The notes under the pieces: model-generated
Seen by the model: the letters and a program-made list of their open reading frames with translations, nothing else
What the model was told of the DNA's origin: nothing
The model's database searches: none
Assembly: GCF_020532725.1 (NCBI RefSeq)
Contig: NZ_JAJAVC010000006.1
Span: 496,001-560,000, forward strand
Length of the DNA: 64,000 nt
Direction: 5' to 3'
Origin: Methylobacillus arboreus
Lineage (GTDB): Bacteria; Pseudomonadota; Gammaproteobacteria; Burkholderiales; Methylophilaceae
In this document: positions 23,085 through 31,828 of the stretch, piece after piece
Layout of the letters: every line of letters starts with the position of its first letter
Position numbering within the stretch: position 1 is the first letter of the stretch
Made by a program: the position numbers and the translations under genes

Positions 23085-25553
23085 TCAAAAAGCGTACTTA
23101 AAGGTCAGCATGGCATTTCTTGGCTCACCGTAATAGCCTGAATTATAGAAACCTATATTGGTGTAATACTTTTTGTCGAAGACGTTATTCACATTCAAGT
23201 TTGCCGATAATTGCTTGCTGATTTGGTACCTGGCCATCAGATCAACTACCCCATAAGCTGACTGTGAAAACTCCTCGGTACGGCCGAGCACTCGGTTGTT
23301 AATCATCTGCCAGCCCTTGCTTTGCCAACGTCCACCGCCGCCTATGGTCAACTGATCCAGCCTGCCCTTGAACTTGTAGCTACTGAAAATCGTGAACTGG
23401 TCTTCCGGTTCCCAGGTTGAAACCTTGTCACCATGTTCGTCCCTGATAATCTTGTGGGTGAAACCAGCTTGCACTTGCCAACCTGGTGCCAACTGACCGG
23501 AGATTTCAGCCTCAAAGCCCCTGGTCTTGGCATTAATCGCCTTGTAGGCATCACTGATGGCAGGGTTAGTAGGGTTGCTGTTGTAGAGTCGGTCCGATTC
23601 TGGCCGGTTGTCCTGATGCACCTCGAAGTAGGCGAGGCTGGCATTCAGGGCACCATTGAAGAACTCTCCCTTAAGGCCCGCTTCATAATTCTGGCCCTCG
23701 TTCGGCTCAAGCAGTTTGTTGCTGCTGCTGCGGTAATAGGTTTGCGGCATGAAAATATCGGTATAGCTCGCGTAGAGCGAATAATTCTGGTTGAGCTTAT
23801 ACACAGTGCCTATATAGGGCACGAGCCTGCCAGATTCCCGTGACTCTTCATCCGGATTAGCCAGGTGATAGTTAGCCACGCGAGTGCCTAGCAACAGCGA
23901 CCAATCGTCTGCCAGATTGAACCTGGCAGTGACATAGCCGCCAGTTTGTTTGACTACTTCATCTTGTCGGGAGCTGACCGGCCCCCAATCAGGTTCCGTA
24001 ATATTGCCATTCCACTGGGAAAAATCTGGAACCGTATTATTGATATAGGTCAGGTCCCAGTAATCCTTGCCAGTCCAGTGCGAGCGGGAGGCTGAAGCAC
24101 CCACCACCAGCTCGTGGGTGCGGCCAAACCATTCAAATGGGCCACTAGCGTACGCATCTAGAGCATTACTCTTAGTTTCGCCGGTGTACTTGTTGGCGTA
24201 GATTGATGCTGTGCCGTCGGCCCTGGGGTAATTGCCCTGAATCGAACCCAGAGGCGCGTCATAGCCATTGGTCTGGTGGTTGAATTGCAGCTTGCCTACC
24301 CAACCACCATCGAATTTGTGTTCCAGAGTAGAAAACACTGTGCGCGTATCCTGCTCCCAGCGGCTCCATTTGGCGCCATTATTGAATGAGCGTGAGATGG
24401 AGTTACGGCCGCCACTGCTATTGAATAATGGGAAGCTACCCGACCATCCCGAGCCCTTGGGGTCGTTATTCTGATAGTCGGCACCCACCGTCAGCAGCGT
24501 CTGTGGGCCGAGGTCGAATTCCAGAATACCGTAAAACACGCCAGTCTTGCGCTCGTAATGATCCATGAAGGATTGCCTGTCCTGGTAGGCAATCACGGTT
24601 CTGCCACGCACATTGCCACTCTCGGTCAAAGGGCCGCTTACATCCAGTTGCGTGCGGTAGTTATCCCATGAACCTGCCCCCAGCGTGAACTCACCACGAA
24701 GCTCGCTGGTAGGTTTCTTGCGCACCAGGTTGATGGTCGCACCTATGGAGCCAGCCCCAGTCAGCAAACCTGTCGCGCCTTTCAATACCTCGACGCGATC
24801 ATAGATCGCCATATCACTGAGGGTTTGACCTGCCGAATACGCCGCGTTGCGTAGTGAGGGAATACCATCGTACTGGAAGTTCTCGACAGCAAAACCACGC
24901 GCCCAGTAATTGGTACGTTCGCTGTCGTAGTGCGAGACTGTGATGCCTGGGGTATGCCGCATCACATCATCAATGGAGTTTAGATTAAAATCGTCGATGT
25001 GCTGCCTGGTTACAACGGTAATCGATTGCGGGGTTTCACTGGGCTTCAGCACTAGGCGGGTGGCAGTGGCAATGGTACCTGGCGTGTAAGAACCGGTATC
25101 TTCGGTGATGGAGCCCAGCTGATTGCTGACCACTTTGACTTCAGGCAATACTGCCAAATCCTTATCCGGCGACTGGCCGATTTTTGCCAGAGGCTTCAAG
25201 CTGTAGCTACCATCCAACTGCCTCATGGCTTGCAGGCTAGTCCCTTGCAAAAGATGCGCCAGACCTTCCTCCACCGTGTAATCCCCCTTTAATCCCGCGC
25301 TGCTGAGCTTGGCGGTAGTGGAGCTTGGATATGAAAGCAGGATGCCTGCCTCCTTGCCGAATTCGGTAAGGGCAGATTCCAGCGAACCTGCAGGAATATC
25401 AAAAGCCTTACGGGAAGATACCGCCTGCAGGGTTTCGGCGGCCATGACCTGGCCATAGGTCATGCTGCTGAAAGCAGTCATCGTAAACAGGCTGGCGACA
25501 GCGACTGAAACAACCTTTGACCTGGCTGAGTTTTGAGACAAGTGTGTAAACAT
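23085..25553 (-). CDS. TonB-dependent siderophore receptor with N-terminal signalling (STN) domain
   Basis: Outer-membrane ferric-siderophore transporter of the FpvA/FecA transducer class, 822 residues. A signal peptide (to about residue 38) is followed by the STN domain (AFDIPAGSLESALTEFGKEAGILLSY to about residue 115), a TonB-box-like VLPEVKVVSN, the plug with PSETPQSITVVTRQHIDDFNLNSIDDVMRHTPGI, and a 22-strand barrel ending in the aromatic NAMLTFKYAF. The STN domain fits the fecR and fecI genes just upstream: loaded receptor signals through FecR to release FecI. Expression should be iron-repressed via the Fur box at 27324-27342. Another metal chelate as ligand cannot be excluded. Confidence 0.94.
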   Translation of the reverse strand: MFTHLSQNSARSKVVSVAVASLFTMTAFSSMTYGQVMAAETLQAVSSRKAFDIPAGSLESALTEFGKEAGILLSYPSSTTAKLSSAGLKGDYTVEEGLAHLLQGTSLQAMRQLDGSYSLKPLAKIGQSPDKDLAVLPEVKVVSNQLGSITEDTGSYTPGTIATATRLVLKPSETPQSITVVTRQHIDDFNLNSIDDVMRHTPGITVSHYDSERTNYWARGFAVENFQYDGIPSLRNAAYSAGQTLSDMAIYDRVEVLKGATGLLTGAGSIGATINLVRKKPTSELRGEFTLGAGSWDNYRTQLDVSGPLTESGNVRGRTVIAYQDRQSFMDHYERKTGVFYGILEFDLGPQTLLTVGADYQNNDPKGSGWSGSFPLFNSSGGRNSISRSFNNGAKWSRWEQDTRTVFSTLEHKFDGGWVGKLQFNHQTNGYDAPLGSIQGNYPRADGTASIYANKYTGETKSNALDAYASGPFEWFGRTHELVVGASASRSHWTGKDYWDLTYINNTVPDFSQWNGNITEPDWGPVSSRQDEVVKQTGGYVTARFNLADDWSLLLGTRVANYHLANPDEESRESGRLVPYIGTVYKLNQNYSLYASYTDIFMPQTYYRSSSNKLLEPNEGQNYEAGLKGEFFNGALNASLAYFEVHQDNRPESDRLYNSNPTNPAISDAYKAINAKTRGFEAEISGQLAPGWQVQAGFTHKIIRDEHGDKVSTWEPEDQFTIFSSYKFKGRLDQLTIGGGGRWQSKGWQMINNRVLGRTEEFSQSAYGVVDLMARYQISKQLSANLNVNNVFDKKYYTNIGFYNSGYYGEPRNAMLTFKYAF

Positions 25554-25611
25554 GCAGATTTCCTGAGCAATGAATGATAGTTTTCATCATCCATGTCTCT
25601 TGAGAATAGAA

Positions 25612-25654
25612 ATCAGCCCACTTTAATTACAATATTTTTGCCTGTTGGGCTGAT
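25612..25654 (-). terminator. Hairpin between fecR-like gene and the receptor gene
   Basis: ATCAGCCCA (25612-25620) and TGGGCTGAT (25646-25654) are perfectly complementary with a 25-nt A/T-rich loop. It lies in the 204-bp gap upstream of the receptor on the minus strand, so it can separate the two transcripts or attenuate read-through. The receptor probably has its own FecI-dependent promoter downstream of it. Confidence 0.5.
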
Positions 25655-25757
25655 TTTCTTTAATACCGGGCTGAAACAATCTGTTAGCAGGCAGCAAACC
25701 TTGCTGATTGGAACATATTCTGGATTGGACTTGCCGCGAAACAGGCTAAGCTGGCCC

Positions 25758-26783
25758 TCAAACAGGCATCAGATTGACCCAGTAGCGCGTGATGTACTGA
25801 ATCTTCAATGGCAGGATACTGGCAAGATTCTTTAGTATCAGTTCGGTATCGGCCAGAGGGAATGAACCTGAAATCCTCAGATCAGCCAGTGCCGGGTCGC
25901 AGCGCACAATGCCACGGCGATGGCGTCCCAGCTCCCGCAGGAAATCCTCCAGCCGCATCTGGCTGACCACCAGCATCCCATCTACCCAGGCCACGCTGCG
26001 CTCGCTCCAGGGCAGGCGCTCACCCAGGCCATGCACACTGAACATGACCAGCTCGCCAGGCATGACAATGATCTCCTGCTGCGGCAGCCCTGCCGCACTC
26101 AAAGCTACTTTGCCTTCCAGCACTGCCAGCTGACTGAAATCCTGATCCAGCCTGACATTGAAGCGCGTACCCAGTGGCTGCATCAGCCCATGGTGTGTGG
26201 CAACCTGCATTGGACGCTGTTGCGCATCCTTGGCAGTTGCCACCATGATTTCACCCCTGAGCAAGTCGATTTTTCTGTGCTGGGCCGTGTAGCGGACGTT
26301 CACCGCACTATTGGAATTCAGCATCAGCTGCGTGCCATCAGCCAGGCGCAATGTCTTGTATTCGCCTGTGCCGGTGTACTCATCCGCTTGCCAGTCAGTC
26401 CAGCTATCACTTTGCGTCAGCACCCACCCACTGCCAGTGGCAAATATCAGCATGGATAACATCTTGATGGAACGGCGGCGGCCAGCAGACTGGGGCGCAG
26501 CCATGGCCGCCTGTGCCATGGCACTGCCCAAGGCAGTTGAAGCTCCACTGAGGTTGGCATTCACTTCAGCGATACGCTGCCAGGCACGCAGGTGATCGGG
26601 ATCCTGGCTCAACCAGTCGGCTAACTGCTGATGCAGCTTGGCATCGTCAGAACCCTTGATTTCAACCAACCATTCCACGGCTTTTTGCGCCACGCGCGCG
26701 GGGATGGATTTCGGGTCTATCCTGGCGCCTGCATTGGAATCCTGCTTGAGGCCGGTCAAAGTATCGTGACCCACGGGAGTCAA
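25758..26783 (-). CDS. FecR-type anti-sigma regulator
   Basis: Inner-membrane protein that relays receptor occupancy to the ECF sigma factor. The 341-residue product has the cytoplasmic DUF4880 domain (AQKAVEWLVEIKGSDDAKLHQQLADWLSQDPDHLRAW, about 31-70), one membrane segment (IKMLSMLIFATGSGWVL, about 106-122), and the periplasmic FecR domain (YTGTGEYKTLRLADGTQLMLNSNSAVNVRY, about 135-170, continuing to LGTRFNVR and LEGKVALS). The C-terminal region (SGSFPLADTELILKNLASILPLKI) is the STN-like part that contacts the receptor. Its start overlaps the sigma gene stop by four bases (ATGA), so they are coupled. Confidence 0.93.
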   Translation of the reverse strand: MTPVGHDTLTGLKQDSNAGARIDPKSIPARVAQKAVEWLVEIKGSDDAKLHQQLADWLSQDPDHLRAWQRIAEVNANLSGASTALGSAMAQAAMAAPQSAGRRRSIKMLSMLIFATGSGWVLTQSDSWTDWQADEYTGTGEYKTLRLADGTQLMLNSNSAVNVRYTAQHRKIDLLRGEIMVATAKDAQQRPMQVATHHGLMQPLGTRFNVRLDQDFSQLAVLEGKVALSAAGLPQQEIIVMPGELVMFSVHGLGERLPWSERSVAWVDGMLVVSQMRLEDFLRELGRHRRGIVRCDPALADLRISGSFPLADTELILKNLASILPLKIQYITRYWVNLMPV

Positions 26784-27295
26784 TCTGGACTACTGGCGAA
26801 ATAGCACTGGGTGCCCGCACGCACCAAGTAGCGCTTGACCGTGGTGATCGACACCCCGAGCAGTTCGCCTATCTGTGCATGACCCAGGCCATCCAGCTGC
26901 GAATAAAGAAAAGCCCGCTTGACGGCCAAGGGAAGGCCATCCAGCAATTGATCTATGGTCAGCAAAGTCTCAATCAGGATGGCGCGCTCTTCAGGAGAAG
27001 GCGCGGTGGCTTCGGGAATTTGCAACAACGTCAGTTCATATGCGCGTTCAATCTTTTCCCGGCGCCAGTAATTACTTAAAACCCTTTGCGCGACAGTCAG
27101 CAAAAATGCCCTGGGTTCCTGCATCACCACCAGCTCCTGCTTGACTAACAAGCGCAGGAAGGTGTCATGGGAAAGATCAGCCGCCAAGTGCGTACAACCA
27201 AGCTTTTTTCTCAGCCAAGCATGCAGCCAACCGTGGTGGGCCCCATACAGATCGGCCAGTTGATTCTGCGAGGGATGCTTTCCTGTCGCTTGCAA
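26780..27295 (-). CDS. FecI-type ECF sigma factor
   Basis: Iron-starvation sigma factor, 171 residues. Region 2 is visible as LYGAHHGWLHAWLRKKLGCTHLAADLSHDTFLRLLV (about 15-52) and region 4 as LPLAVKRAFLYSQLDGLGHAQIGELLGVSITTVKRYL (about 120-160), with the family HTH. It is the first gene of a fecI-fecR-receptor set. A Fur box lies 28 bp before its start codon, so iron repression is expected at this gene. The whole arrangement matches FecIRA and PupIR/FpvI systems. Confidence 0.93.
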   Translation of the reverse strand: MQATGKHPSQNQLADLYGAHHGWLHAWLRKKLGCTHLAADLSHDTFLRLLVKQELVVMQEPRAFLLTVAQRVLSNYWRREKIERAYELTLLQIPEATAPSPEERAILIETLLTIDQLLDGLPLAVKRAFLYSQLDGLGHAQIGELLGVSITTVKRYLVRAGTQCYFASSPD

Positions 27296-27940: not shown

Positions 27941-29818
27941 TTACAGGCTAAATACATTGAGGGCGCCACCACCAGGAGCCGCATTCCACTGCTTCAGCTC
28001 CTTGTAACCACCCGCGGCACCGAGCGCATCATTGTCATTTTCAAGACCCATATTCATCGCTACGCCAGCCCAACCACCAATACCGGAGAGCACGCCAACG
28101 TATTGCTTGCCTTTGTGAGTGTATGTGAAAGCATTACCAATCACACCGGAACCCACCTGGAATTTCCAGAGCTCCTTACCACTTTGCGCATCAACAGCCT
28201 TGAACCAACGGTCCAGAGTACCGTAGAACACCAGGTCAGAAGCCGTAGTCAGAACACCACCCCAGGCAGAGAACTTCTCCTTGTTGTACCACTTGCTCTT
28301 GTTGGTCATTGGGTCATAAGCGGCAAAGCCGCCCATGACCCCATCCGGACCGGCGAACATGGTCAAGGTCGCGCCCACCCATGGCTGGCCAGCAACGTAT
28401 TTGGACTCAACCGGCTCATAGGTCATACAAACGTGGTTGAGTGGGGAATACATAAGACCGGTACGCGGAGAATAAGCAGCAGGCTGTTGGTCCTTGGTAC
28501 CCAGCGCGGCAGGGCAGATACCCTTGGTGTTGTAGTCCTGATGGGTGGAATATTTGGCATCCTTGTGCGGAATGCCAGTCTTCAAGTCGATGTGAGTCGC
28601 CCAGTTGACAAATGGGTGAACCTTTTCAGCGGAAACCAGAGTACCGGTACCAGCTTCCCATGTGTACGCAAAACCATTGCGGTCATGGTGCCAAGCATAG
28701 GTCTTGCCCTTGTTCTCAAACAAGATGACTTCATTAATACCATCGTAATCCCACTCGTCATGAGGCGTCATCTGATATCCCCAACGGGCCAAGCCGGTAT
28801 CGACATCCCGGGCAAAGATGGTCATGGACCACTTGTTGTCGCCAGGGCGCACGTCCGGGTTCCAAACGGATGGGTTTGCAGTTCCGTAGTAAACCAGGTT
28901 CGTCTTGGGATCATATGGGAACCAACCCCAAACCGAGGCACCGCCATGCTGCCAGCCATCCTTCACAGCCTGCGGCTTGAGCCAGGTCTTCAAGCCCAAA
29001 TCTGTTTCGGGAAACTTCAGTTTTTCCTTAGGCAGCGCCTTGAAGGAGCCGCCTTCCTTGTTGCCGCCGTTGATATCCTCATAAACGGACAAGGCGCTGT
29101 AATGCGGATTCTCTTTATTGAAGTCCTTGCCGATCAGGACATCGGAATCAGGGCCGGTATGGTAGGCCCGCCAAGCGAGAGACCCATCCTTGATGTTGTA
29201 GGCGGAGAAATGACAACGGACACCATACTCGGCACCAGAGCAACCGGTGAGCACCTTGTCCTTAATCACATGCGGCGCATTGGTAGTGGTTTCCCCTACC
29301 TTGGGATCGGCTACTTTAGCATCCCAGACTTTTTGACCGGTCTTGGCGTCAAGGGCTACCAGCGTGCCATCGTTCTGCCCCAGGAATATCTTGCCATCAC
29401 CATAGCCCAAACCGCGGTTAACGACGTCGCAGCACATCACGGCCTGAACAGAGGGGTCCTGCTTCGGAAAGTAAGCCCACACGATCTTCTGGTTATTGTT
29501 CAGGTCGAGGGCGTATACGTTGTTGGGGAATGCTGTATGTACATATAGCATGTTCCCAACTACAACAGGGGAGCCTTCGTGACCACGGTTCACCCCGGTA
29601 GCGAACTGCCACGCTGCCTTGACATTCTTGACATTGCTCTTATTGATTTGGTTAAGAGTGCTGTACCCCTGATTATCATATTGTCCTCGGGGGTGTACCC
29701 AATTATTGGCATCTTTCATGGCAGCTTCCATATCGGCTGCAGCATATAATGACAACGGTGCCGATGCCGCCATGCCCAAGGCAAGGCTCACAACCAGATT
29801 AACCTTTTTGATTTTCAT
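27941..29818 (-). CDS. xoxF: Lanthanide-dependent methanol dehydrogenase XoxF (PQQ quinoprotein)
   Basis: Periplasmic PQQ enzyme oxidising methanol to formaldehyde or formate and passing electrons to cytochrome c. The 625-residue precursor has a signal peptide to about residue 27, eight-blade propeller repeats, and the vicinal disulfide pair Cys129-Cys130. Metal and active-site residues are Glu197 (GCSGAEYG), Asn315 (YGTANPSVWNP), catalytic Asp357 and Asp359 in DEWDYDG. The second Asp of WDYD is the lanthanide mark; MxaF has Ala there. The Glu-to-Asn distance is 118 residues, against 84 in well-studied enzymes, so an insertion of about 34 residues (near 236-270) is present. No cytochrome or XoxJ gene is adjacent. 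GGAGAAGG provides the ribosome site. Confidence 0.96.
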   Translation of the reverse strand: MKIKKVNLVVSLALGMAASAPLSLYAAADMEAAMKDANNWVHPRGQYDNQGYSTLNQINKSNVKNVKAAWQFATGVNRGHEGSPVVVGNMLYVHTAFPNNVYALDLNNNQKIVWAYFPKQDPSVQAVMCCDVVNRGLGYGDGKIFLGQNDGTLVALDAKTGQKVWDAKVADPKVGETTTNAPHVIKDKVLTGCSGAEYGVRCHFSAYNIKDGSLAWRAYHTGPDSDVLIGKDFNKENPHYSALSVYEDINGGNKEGGSFKALPKEKLKFPETDLGLKTWLKPQAVKDGWQHGGASVWGWFPYDPKTNLVYYGTANPSVWNPDVRPGDNKWSMTIFARDVDTGLARWGYQMTPHDEWDYDGINEVILFENKGKTYAWHHDRNGFAYTWEAGTGTLVSAEKVHPFVNWATHIDLKTGIPHKDAKYSTHQDYNTKGICPAALGTKDQQPAAYSPRTGLMYSPLNHVCMTYEPVESKYVAGQPWVGATLTMFAGPDGVMGGFAAYDPMTNKSKWYNKEKFSAWGGVLTTASDLVFYGTLDRWFKAVDAQSGKELWKFQVGSGVIGNAFTYTHKGKQYVGVLSGIGGWAGVAMNMGLENDNDALGAAGGYKELKQWNAAPGGGALNVFSL

Positions 29819-29935
29819 GTTGCCTTCTCCATAGTAATGATTGCAATTCCAGAGCCTGATTCAGAACCAAACACTTGAATGCAGCGGCTTGGTCCCAACC
29901 CAGCCCTGTATTTATCAAATCCCATCAAGACGGAA

Positions 29936-29973
29936 CTCCTCCCGTGATTGGAGATTTGCCTGGCTTATGCCAG
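29936..29973 (-). other. Two hairpins in the xoxF leader
   Basis: Read on the minus strand, CTGGC-ATAA-GCCAG (29973-29960) is followed by CTCC-aatcacg-GGAG (29953-29939). Both fall in the predicted untranslated leader of about 155 nt between the xoxF promoter and its start codon. They could stabilise the mRNA or serve a regulatory purpose; no known riboswitch motif is recognised. Confidence 0.45.
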
Positions 29974-29980
29974 TGGAGGT

Positions 29981-30009
29981 ACTATAGACAGACCTGTCTG
30001 ACTTTGCAA
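29981..30009 (-). promoter_or_regulatory. xoxF promoter with embedded TetR-type operator
   Basis: On the minus strand TTGCAA (30009-30004) and TATAGT (29986-29981) are exactly 17 bp apart. Lying over that spacer is a perfect inverted repeat, AGACAG-GT-CTGTCT (29999-29986), whose last base overlaps the -10. This is the form of operator used by many TetR regulators, and a tetR gene lies nearby (30847-31416). Repression of xoxF by that protein is an inference from layout. Confidence 0.72.
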
Positions 30010-30020
30010 CTGTTATCTAT

Positions 30021-30049
30021 TTCAGTCGTAAGAATCGGACAGTTATAAT
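30021..30049 (+). promoter_or_regulatory. Promoter of the unknown membrane-protein gene
   Basis: TATAAT (30044-30049) is a consensus -10. The -35 at 17-bp spacing is TTCAGT (30021-30026), a weak match. Transcription would start near 30056, 33 bases before the start codon. The xoxF operator lies about 22 bp upstream of this -35, so both directions could be affected by one bound protein. Confidence 0.55.
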
Positions 30050-30088
30050 GCCTTCGCGGGCTACATGAATTCGAGAATGTAGAAATTT

Positions 30089-30844
30089 ATGATCACTCAA
30101 AATGCAAAAAGCATTTTTGCTGCCAACCAGTTGGCAGAAGCGATGCGTGCCCAAGGAAAAAAGCCGGTAAAAAGGTTGGGCGGTTTGGCAATGGCCTTGT
30201 CTTTATTGGGTAGCCAGGCCTCTGACAAAGAGCTCTTCCGACAAGGGATTGAAAAAATCCAAACAGACGACCTGGAGTTATTGCGGCAACTAATCACGCC
30301 CGAGGTAAACAAAGCTGGCGTGCCGCAGTCAGACTCGATTGCAGAACAGATATTGATGGTGCTTGTCGGCACTCTGCAAATGGAGGCGAGAAAAGACGCT
30401 TCTGTCTCCTGGCCTATCGCAGTCAGCGCAATTGAAGCATTGTTACAGAATTCCAAGCGGTCGCTCGTACTCCGATATGCGGCACCTATAGTGGGAGCAT
30501 TATTCTTTGCTACAACAGGATTGATCAGCTATCAGTTTTTCTTCCTGCCCAAGGTGACCAGCAAACCTATCCCGGTAGAGCTGCTGGCTATCGTCCCGGA
30601 AGACCCCAAAGTACCCAATCCTTATGTACCCAGCCATTTCTACACCATGCGGCAGAACATGGAAAAAATGAAATGCCAGTTTCCCCAGGCCGCCATGCTT
30701 CCTGAAGAACAGCGTTCAGCCTTCCTTAACTTCATCAATACGGGGGAAATAGCGCTCACAGAACTTACCAGCCTGCAATTGGCTTTATCCAAGGTGCACT
30801 GCACCTATCCTTCCTTAACAGGTCGGCAAGAACATTTGAGATAA
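30089..30844 (+). CDS. Uncharacterised protein with one membrane segment
   Basis: I do not recognise this 251-residue protein. The first 125 residues look cytoplasmic and helical (IFAANQLAEAMRAQGKKPVKRLGGLAMALSLLG, then QIQTDDLELLRQLITPEVNKAG-like sequence). One membrane helix follows at about 129-152 (YAAPIVGALFFATTGLISYQFFF), then about 95 residues probably in the periplasm, with two Cys (KMKCQFPQ and KVHCTYPS) that could form a disulfide. It is divergent from xoxF, shares its regulatory region, and is convergent with the tetR gene (2 bp apart). Position suggests a link to methanol oxidation control, but this is only inference. Confidence 0.7.
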   Translation: MITQNAKSIFAANQLAEAMRAQGKKPVKRLGGLAMALSLLGSQASDKELFRQGIEKIQTDDLELLRQLITPEVNKAGVPQSDSIAEQILMVLVGTLQMEARKDASVSWPIAVSAIEALLQNSKRSLVLRYAAPIVGALFFATTGLISYQFFFLPKVTSKPIPVELLAIVPEDPKVPNPYVPSHFYTMRQNMEKMKCQFPQAAMLPEEQRSAFLNFINTGEIALTELTSLQLALSKVHCTYPSLTGRQEHLR

Positions 30845-30846
30845 CC

Positions 30847-31416
30847 TCAACGGCCAAGAGAGGACCGAATCAGGAGAATGGCGGCTTGTTTTGCCCTTGC
30901 AGTGGCTCCCCGGCCGGGACTTAGGCGTTCAACCAACGAGGCACCCTCAAATAGCATGATGATTTGCTGACTGATGGATTCGGGTTCTACCATCCCCGCC
31001 TCTTTTGCCAAGTCAACAATATAGGCCTGCAGCTCGTTCGATAGCCTCACAGAGTACTGATGCACTGGGTGTTTTGGATCCGGAAACTCGACCGATGCCA
31101 AATGGAAGGGTAAGCCCTTCGAACGCTGGGTCAGGATGTGCTGCTCCAGCAAACTGCACAATTGGACCAGCTTATCAGCCGGTTCAGCCGGTTTCTCCTT
31201 GAGTCCTTGGCTGAGCCGGTCAATAAAACTATCTGCGTTTCTTTTCAAAAACGCGATGACCAGAAGGTCCTTGCTAGGGAAATGTTTGTACAACGTCGCT
31301 TTAGCCACTCCAGCCTCTGCAATGATCGTATCCACCCCTGAAGCATGAATCCCCCTGGACTCAAACAGGTTGCTTGCAACATTTAGGATTTTTGTCCTTA
31401 TGTCTTCAAGAGTCAT
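30847..31416 (-). CDS. TetR/AcrR family regulator near xoxF
   Basis: A 189-residue regulator with a clear N-terminal HTH (TKILNVASNLFESRGIHASGVDTIIAEAGVAKATLYKHFPSKDLLVIAFL, about 8-57). The C-terminal domain resembles the TetR_C class seen in regulators of small oxidoreductases. AGGAGGGG precedes the start. It is convergent with the unknown membrane-protein gene and only 1.0 kb from the xoxF operator. The AGACAG-CTGTCT repeat at 29986-29999 is the best operator candidate in the neighbourhood; I saw no copy in front of tetR itself, so autoregulation is not evident. Confidence 0.9.
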   Translation of the reverse strand: MTLEDIRTKILNVASNLFESRGIHASGVDTIIAEAGVAKATLYKHFPSKDLLVIAFLKRNADSFIDRLSQGLKEKPAEPADKLVQLCSLLEQHILTQRSKGLPFHLASVEFPDPKHPVHQYSVRLSNELQAYIVDLAKEAGMVEPESISQQIIMLFEGASLVERLSPGRGATARAKQAAILLIRSSLGR

Positions 31417-31776
31417 AGCCCCTCCTGAAATGAATATGTTGTACTGCTATATAAAATGACTTTAATAGATTCACAAAACAACCGCCTAGTTCGGAGTCTA
31501 AATGACAAGTGAGTGACTGCTTCATTGTCAACTTTAAGCCAATTGTATCCTATTCCTTTGATATCAATGCCGTATTCGTTGATCTCGGTTTTCATACTGC
31601 AGAGCAGCCCACACATTGATCAGTAACTTAGAAGACCTGCCCATACGCTTTACCTGCATGTTCACAAGAACAAACCGTTGGCGGCTGTAGTGGATGAAGC
31701 CTAAATCCTTGCCCATGCCTTCGGTTTACTCAATGGCTGTTCGGTATGTCTTCATTAAGATCGGAAAACAATTTAG
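31417..31776. other. Intergenic stretch upstream of tetR
   Basis: About 360 bp with no recognisable gene. A 50-codon open frame on the minus strand (about 31718-31568, beginning MGKDLGFIHYSRQRF) has no ribosome site and no identifiable family; it might be a remnant. The tetR promoter must lie near 31430-31470 on the minus strand, where tttatatagc is a possible -10. Confidence 0.4.
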
Positions 31777-31828
31777 CGGCTGAACCTAGTGCAGTGTGCA
31801 CCATTGCACACATCAGGTTTCAGCCGCA
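31777..31828 (-). terminator. Long hairpin at the 3' end of the FGE-like gene
   Basis: GCGGCTGAACCT (31777-31788) pairs with AGGTTTCAGCCGC (31816-31828) with one bulge. Inside it GTGTGCA (31795-31801) and TGCACAC (31806-31812) form a second perfect stem. The structure overlaps the last five codons of the FGE-like gene and has only a weak T-run after it. Confidence 0.6.

Follow-up and report, generated by a model that had tools for sequence, protein, structure and literature searches.

We analyzed a window of 64,000 nucleotides from the genome of Methylobacillus arboreus (G000; the window is G000:C14:496001-560000), in which one copy of xoxF lies next to a gene for an uncharacterized membrane protein and a tetR gene. 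The features of this locus are as follows.

27941-29818, minus strand: xoxF, encoding a methanol dehydrogenase of the PQQ and lanthanide type; the genome has four close copies, of which this is one.
29980-30016, minus strand: block of 37 bp with the same letters before the orthologous xoxF of Methylobacillus caricis, holding operator, -35 and -10.
29981-30009, minus strand: putative xoxF promoter TTGCAA-17-TATAGT (-35 at 30009-30004, -10 at 29986-29981), a consensus match only.
29986-29999, minus-strand reading: predicted operator, a perfect 6-2-6 inverted repeat AGACAG-GT-CTGTCT (AGACAGGTCTGTCT).
29988-30000: CAGACAGGTCTGT, the core common to TetR1 regulon sites by sequence comparison.
30089-30844, plus strand: gene of the uncharacterized membrane protein (TetR-like effector domain at about residues 13-120, membrane helix at about 131-150, C-terminal domain with C196 and C238).
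30847-31416, minus strand: tetR (TetR1), with an HTH at residues 10-55 and a nine-helix TetR fold, the nearest solved fold being SCO4454 (3g7r).

The xoxF product scored 632.8 bits against TIGR03075 in a profile search (cut-off 480), which places it in the PQQ methanol/ethanol dehydrogenase family, and its translation contains WDYDG, a D-Y-D motif; a D-x-D with the extra Asp is characteristic of lanthanide-type enzymes. Directly adjoining xoxF, at 23085-27295 of the window, we noted a TonB siderophore-type receptor gene (TIGR01783) and then fecR- and sigma-factor-like genes (by eye), a cluster that could serve metal or lanthanide uptake. We use TetR1 for the tetR product and its orthologs at 50% identity or more, and TetR2 for a paralog. 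TetR1 has the TetR_N HTH at its N terminus (PF00440, 55.8 bits, cut-off 24, residues 10-55), and its AF2 model (pLDDT 91) has the nine helices of the TetR/AcrR fold, with a TM of 0.89 to 3g7r. Three of its residues, C87, H105, and H116, are invariant among 13 aligned members and absent from the intact TetR2 rows (the row from L088, in a wrong reading frame, was left out of this comparison); they could be part of a ligand site. A single in-frame TAG lies inside the TetR1 ortholog match at G011:C1:2386350-2386910, and a single in-frame TGA inside the third MoxR-cluster VWA match of M. arboreus (G000:C11:262267-263244); these stops may reflect over-run of the match, sequencing error, or decay.

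A preliminary description of this DNA had placed a perfect inverted repeat in the 17-bp spacer of the best xoxF promoter, touching the -10, with a tetR gene about 1 kb away. Both statements hold: The repeat occupies most of the spacer and has one base in common with the -10, and the distance from the repeat to tetR is 0.85 kb at the near end of the gene and 1.4 kb at its start codon. An operator inside the promoter spacer is the textbook position for a repressor. The promoter is the sole sigma70-like match within 29800-31800, a match that is weak by itself because shuffled sequence yields 2.6 on average over the same stretch. As for the repeat, the perfect copy in the window is also the one found in the whole genome, and copies with up to two mismatches number 78, barely above the 66 of a control. 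A perfect palindrome with 6-base arms occurred in 34% of simulated intergenic regions of equal size when spacers of 0-6 were allowed, and in 7% when the spacer had to be exactly 2. With such counts near chance, the repeat alone is not significant; its conservation is, given 37 identical bases in M. caricis. A palindrome of purely accidental origin, which the simulated 34% would allow, is rejected on that conservation, and with the association with TetR1 given below (30/30 vs. 7/90), we hold it to be extremely improbable.

The comparison with M. caricis VKM B-3158, of the same genus (G002, also L079 and L238), is informative because the order of genes has changed: xoxF(+), the uncharacterized gene (+), and tetR(-) there, against xoxF(-), the uncharacterized gene (+), and tetR(-) in the window. 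Despite this inversion of xoxF, ATAACAGTTGCAAAGTCAGACAGGTCTGTCTATAGTA stands unchanged before it in both genomes, while in the rest of the xoxF upstream region 147 of 218 aligned columns agree (counted outside a 30-bp core, so that the 218 include 7 of the 37). The uncharacterized gene of M. caricis lies on the far side of xoxF from the operator, and the two genes are in tandem there, whereas in the window they are divergent. Because the 37 bp were kept before xoxF despite the inversion, we conclude that the site belongs with this xoxF copy and not with the uncharacterized gene. No such operator was found upstream of the other three xoxF copies of M. arboreus.

This arrangement bears on a reading in which the repeat is the operator of the uncharacterized gene, serving autoregulation of that gene and tetR, with xoxF merely on the other side. 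In the window the operator ends 90 bp before the ATG of the uncharacterized gene, which the preliminary description had described as sharing the regulatory region, and the moxR-linked clade described below does have a site in the promoter of this gene pair. The M. caricis arrangement largely refutes such a reading, and the window site itself sits inside the xoxF -35/-10, well upstream of the TATAAT at 30044-30049 (by eye), the -10-like hexamer nearest the uncharacterized gene. We saw no comparable site before the gene pair in M. caricis, and therefore autoregulation is not general. We consider this reading improbable, and a site that belongs only to the uncharacterized gene was rejected on the M. 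caricis arrangement; dual control of xoxF and the uncharacterized gene by one site is possible.

We then searched 187 genomes of the family for the xoxF-linked module with the uncharacterized protein of the window as the query, at an E-value cut of 1e-28 picked to exclude the moxR-linked copies (the best of which reached 3.8e-27). The module was present in four genomes (M. arboreus; M. caricis; Methylotenera versatilis 7, G076; and Methylophilus rhizosphaerae, G133), with xoxF adjacent in all four; the last two have the tandem order uncharacterized gene-tetR-xoxF. Trees grouped the four uncharacterized proteins with a support of 97/87 and the four TetRs with 93/50, a TetR grouping that is not firm. 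These trees were built without duplicate loci (L079, L161, L106, L119-L151), TetR2 rows and rows of the second paralog beyond L097, and rows of odd length, and one cyanobacterial TetR (L277) was kept on account of its label. The operator at xoxF is exact in the two Methylobacillus genomes, and M. versatilis 7 has two imperfect ones, with a matrix score of 12.7 (background 95%, 8.1; 99%, 14.4). M. rhizosphaerae, which carries the module, has no recognizable operator before xoxF (score 1.4) and shows a different imperfect palindrome there; since its XoxF branches in another part of the XoxF tree, gene and regulator have not simply traveled together. Across 24 other xoxF upstream regions (leaving out those of the four module genomes and L106, a duplicate of G076), a single one exceeded the 99% background: G003, a genome without TetR1, has an imperfect site before a xoxF that scores 18.9. 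Co-conservation of operator, tetR, and the uncharacterized gene beside xoxF, which the preliminary description had proposed as a check, was found, with the operator kept at xoxF of M. caricis despite the inversion.

The same check, extended to the regulator wherever it occurs, gave a strong association. The exact 12-mer AGACAGGTCTGT is present in 37 of 120 Methylophilaceae genomes and TetR1 in 30 of them; all 30 genomes with TetR1 have the 12-mer, compared with seven of the 90 without (Fisher p 6e-22, counting genomes as independent despite kinship). The next-best TetR, at 48% identity in G022, was counted as absence of TetR1, and that genome is without the 12-mer. The seven genomes with a 12-mer and without TetR1 are G001, G003, G009, G013, G024, G025, and G030, and in four of the seven the 12-mer lies inside a called ORF. 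We also drew 36 loci with TetR1 and/or the uncharacterized gene from the best 80 of 335 loci. AGACAGGTCTG occurs somewhere in 33 of these; of the remaining three, L251 and L257 have a near copy before the uncharacterized gene, and in L255 this gene was not recognized. Among the same best 80 of 335, both tetR and the uncharacterized gene were recognized at 33 loci, and at 31 of these no more than 120 bp separates them.

Besides the site in the window, the 30 TetR1 genomes hold 58 exact sites, of which 26 belong to MoxR together with the uncharacterized gene, one to MoxR, one to the uncharacterized gene, 16 to a small membrane protein, six to a molybdopterin oxidoreductase, one to xoxF, and seven to other genes. 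These last, classified by eye, comprise two sites before ferredoxin-like and small-membrane-protein genes of G076, three before an ORF that, at 628-650 aa, matches in size the thiC identified in L156, one within an ORF (G023), and the second site of M. arboreus. The small membrane protein (∼130-136 aa; L155:7386-7796, L159:6104-6499, L011:1843-2253, and relatives), repeatedly found under TetR1-type operators, has conserved H-x-D-[FY]...GFY and G-x-x-x-NP motifs and had a Pfam match in none of three cases tested; in Methylococcales (L273-L275, L279), its genes also occur in divergent arrangement with TetR genes. The molybdopterin oxidoreductase resembles DMSO reductase and formate dehydrogenase (L157:7105-9249, L170:4403-6625, and relatives), and an exact TetR1-type operator lies ∼40-95 bp before its called start in G011, G023, G098, G110, G122, and G128.

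In most genomes with TetR1, the operator lies between two divergent units, a MoxR-DUF58-VWA-TPR-VWA operon on one side and the pair of the uncharacterized gene and tetR1 on the other (examples are Methylophilus methylotrophus DSM 46235, Methylophilaceae bacterium 11, and the second copy of M. versatilis 7). Methylovorus sp. MM2 (G020) differs in having the pair downstream of the operon; its two transcripts are not divergent, and each has one site of its own. At L080 the operon reads AAA_3/bpMoxR, DUF58, a protein without a match, VWA_2, TPR (below cut-off), and VWA_2; with a MoxR ATPase, DUF58, and VWA proteins in order, it is of the mxaRSACKL type. Accessory clusters of this type are described in Methylophilaceae at two to four copies per genome in the part of PMC4109929 available to us. 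The TetR1-linked operon is of that kind and differs in not being the copy that adjoins mxaF. We rejected it as the true mxa cluster, the copy beside mxaF being ∼30% identical to it in the VWA protein MxaC (G000, G006), and more than one MxaC-like match was found in 11 of 12 genomes searched. The sequence comparisons make the TetR1-linked operon and the cluster beside mxaF paralogs of each other. The claim that a TetR controls xoxF thus gains support from co-conservation at the sequence level and has to be narrowed: xoxF is a minority target (the module in 4/187 genomes, the exact site in two), the commoner target of TetR1 would be the MoxR/VWA operon, and one of the four xoxF copies of the genome is involved.

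The paralog TetR2 raises the question of which regulator owns which site. Its recognition helix differs from that of TetR1 (TKMTLYKYF vs. AKATLYKHF), and tetR2 promoters carry TATACAGAyyTGTATA-like repeats in L092 and L093, more degenerate in L086, L087, and L091. A sister palindrome of the TATACAGATCTGTATA type occurs in M. arboreus at C3:34918, C3:255500, and C11:266155 (L011, L218, L233), where it precedes two MoxR/VWA operons and one ferredoxin-like/small-membrane-protein operon. The motif also stands before MoxR in G001, G004, and G005, all without TetR1; none was seen before MoxR in the stretches examined of G002, G015, and G022, and the one in G003 is degenerate. Since the same type precedes tetR2 in some relatives, TetR2 is the likely owner of these sites, and TetR1 and TetR2 may divide such operons through sister operators. 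Might another TetR, such as TetR2, bind the xoxF site instead? TetR2 has a similar partner arrangement, its apparent sites in the genus Methylobacillus, before its own gene and MoxR operons, are sisters of the TetR1 motif, and an exact site in G013 lies next to a TetR2-like gene. The difference in recognition helices speaks against it, as does the rarity of the 12-mer without TetR1 (five of 55 genomes with a distant TetR of 36%-48% identity, within the seven of 90 overall), and we regard binding by another TetR as quite improbable.

The uncharacterized protein had no Pfam or NCBIfam match, and its nature emerged from profile and structure comparisons. A comparison with TetR by hhalign gave a probability of 97.8 for the effector domain (E 1.1e-12, 118 columns; 58 and 65 sequences, four rows having been left out of the TetR set), with the alignment keeping the register of the TetR C-terminal domain; the TetR HTH alone gave a probability of 0. 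Other profile comparisons with TetR gave 76 (29 and 30 sequences) and 13 (a narrower TetR set). None of 68 control families scored above 23, compared with 88.5 for TetR, and the eight best had probabilities of at most 1.5. A first TetR2 set (probability up to 99.7) was discarded because it contained proteins without an HTH. The AF2 model (pLDDT 77, pTM 0.53) has a helical, well-modeled N-terminal half with a long helix at 107-148, a poor linker at ∼150-190, helices between 181 and 235 modeled with moderate to good confidence, and a tail that is again poor. Foldseek against the PDB returned TetR proteins first (EthR2, FadR, and SCO4454 among them) with probabilities up to 1.0 and E-values of 0.06-0.4, none at 0.001; sigma factors, matched at lower probability, were set aside. 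Of 58 members, 50 have a 19-residue stretch with a mean hydropathy above 1.6; the window's own protein is borderline in this respect, at residue 134. On the combined evidence of profiles, AF2/Foldseek, and hydropathy, the protein is a relative of the TetR effector/dimerization domain without the HTH, which by definition is not a TetR regulator; it is probably anchored in the membrane, with its C-terminal domain probably outside. The gene at the regulatory region, which encodes this TetR-like protein, is no bystander.

When 274 genomes of the class were searched for the protein, only M. arboreus matched and no other family member was among the matches listed, so the protein appears to be limited to Methylophilaceae. 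Within this genome, we recognized three paralogous pairs of a TetR and an HTH-less partner. Around the paralog near TetR2 lie redoxin, UPF0093, and pfkB-like genes, and we recognized no methanol dehydrogenase gene at this locus. In the third pair (L118:7755-9099, G000:C15:17755-19099), the relative overlaps the start of another TetR gene and is 25% identical to the second paralog. This repeated pairing with TetR genes speaks for a functional couple.

The uncharacterized protein could instead be a methanol dehydrogenase factor, acting in the envelope or in enzyme maturation, that is co-regulated only and has no role in control. Its gene adjoins MoxR/VWA accessory genes and xoxF, and conservation is highest in its cysteine-bearing C-terminal domain (C196 and C238 are invariant in 29 aligned members), not in the TetR-like part. 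Its homology to the TetR effector domain points the other way, and its paralogs beside TetR2 and a third TetR suggest that its partner is a TetR, not the enzyme. A maturation factor is a serious possibility, to which we give appreciably less than an even chance.

What the DNA and its translations show is the operator and how it is conserved, the fact that it co-occurs with TetR1, a branch linked to xoxF, and the homology of the partner to TetR; these lead to the following model. Control of one xoxF copy by a TetR through the operator is, in our judgment, very probable. It is likely, with somewhat less assurance, that TetR1 is the repressor: It would bind CAGACAGGTCTGTC and, sitting between the -35 and -10 of xoxF, would shut out RNA polymerase, and its release would turn this xoxF copy on. 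The main targets of the TetR1 clade would be a MoxR/VWA (mxaRSACKL-like) operon and the operon of the regulator itself, both served by the same operator in a divergent promoter; a sister branch would be tied to xoxF. We suggest tentatively, at a little under an even chance, that the membrane-tethered TetR-like partner sets the state of TetR1, at least in part. It would most likely pair with TetR1 via the TetR dimer face, or bind the same ligand, and so couple TetR1 to a membrane or periplasmic signal; the signal relieving repression would reach TetR1 through, or together with, this partner. Lanthanide, formaldehyde, or PQQ/dehydrogenase as that signal is speculation, and so is the metal or small-molecule ligand of the preliminary description. 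A fuller version, which we think rather unlikely, is a transmembrane TetR system: The HTH-less membrane relative would sense the periplasm with its outer domain (cysteine redox, a metal, or methanol dehydrogenase/PQQ assembly) and change the soluble TetR by heterodimerizing with it; in the xoxF-linked branch, one xoxF copy would thereby be switched by the lanthanide or dehydrogenase state.

In the open-licence PMC literature, the titles and abstracts listed by our searches describe no TetR at xoxF, mxaRSACKL, or methanol dehydrogenase and no HTH-less or membrane-bound TetR partner. Expression of xoxF copies varies within and between Methylophilaceae, according to the available parts of PMC3728764 and PMC6028718. 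For the choice that these bacteria make among several methanol dehydrogenases, our analysis offers a concrete candidate regulator, operator, and partner for one xoxF copy, along with a wider candidate regulon around the MoxR/VWA accessory operon. If true, the pairing of a TetR with an HTH-less, membrane-bound TetR domain would amount to a new signaling design in which a signal is carried across the membrane, and a family of one-component repressors would gain two-component-like sensing across it.

With one-component TetR/AcrR repressors (QacR, NemR, FasR, and, nearest in fold, SCO4454, 3g7r), TetR1 shares the PF00440 HTH, the nine-helix fold, a short palindromic operator in the promoter, and a gene that adjoins its targets. 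It differs in its predicted target, a lanthanide-type methanol dehydrogenase gene, and in being paired with a membrane protein that bears a TetR effector domain without the HTH. TetR regulators set by a protein partner are known in AmtR-GlnK and DhaS-DhaQ; there, as proposed here, a second protein and not a small ligand alone sets the regulator, whereas the partner proposed here is related to the TetR effector domain and anchored in the membrane. The lanthanide switches named in the available part of a review are two-component systems (PMC11845868), and the same source reports that in M. flagellatus the protein levels of two such systems were unchanged with La. Compared with the two-component control of xoxF and mxaF described there (MxbDM, MxcQE, MxaY/MxaB, PedS2/PedR2), the proposed system has a like gene as its target and may likewise link a periplasmic signal to transcription, but in place of a kinase and a response regulator it would use a TetR and a TetR-like membrane partner.
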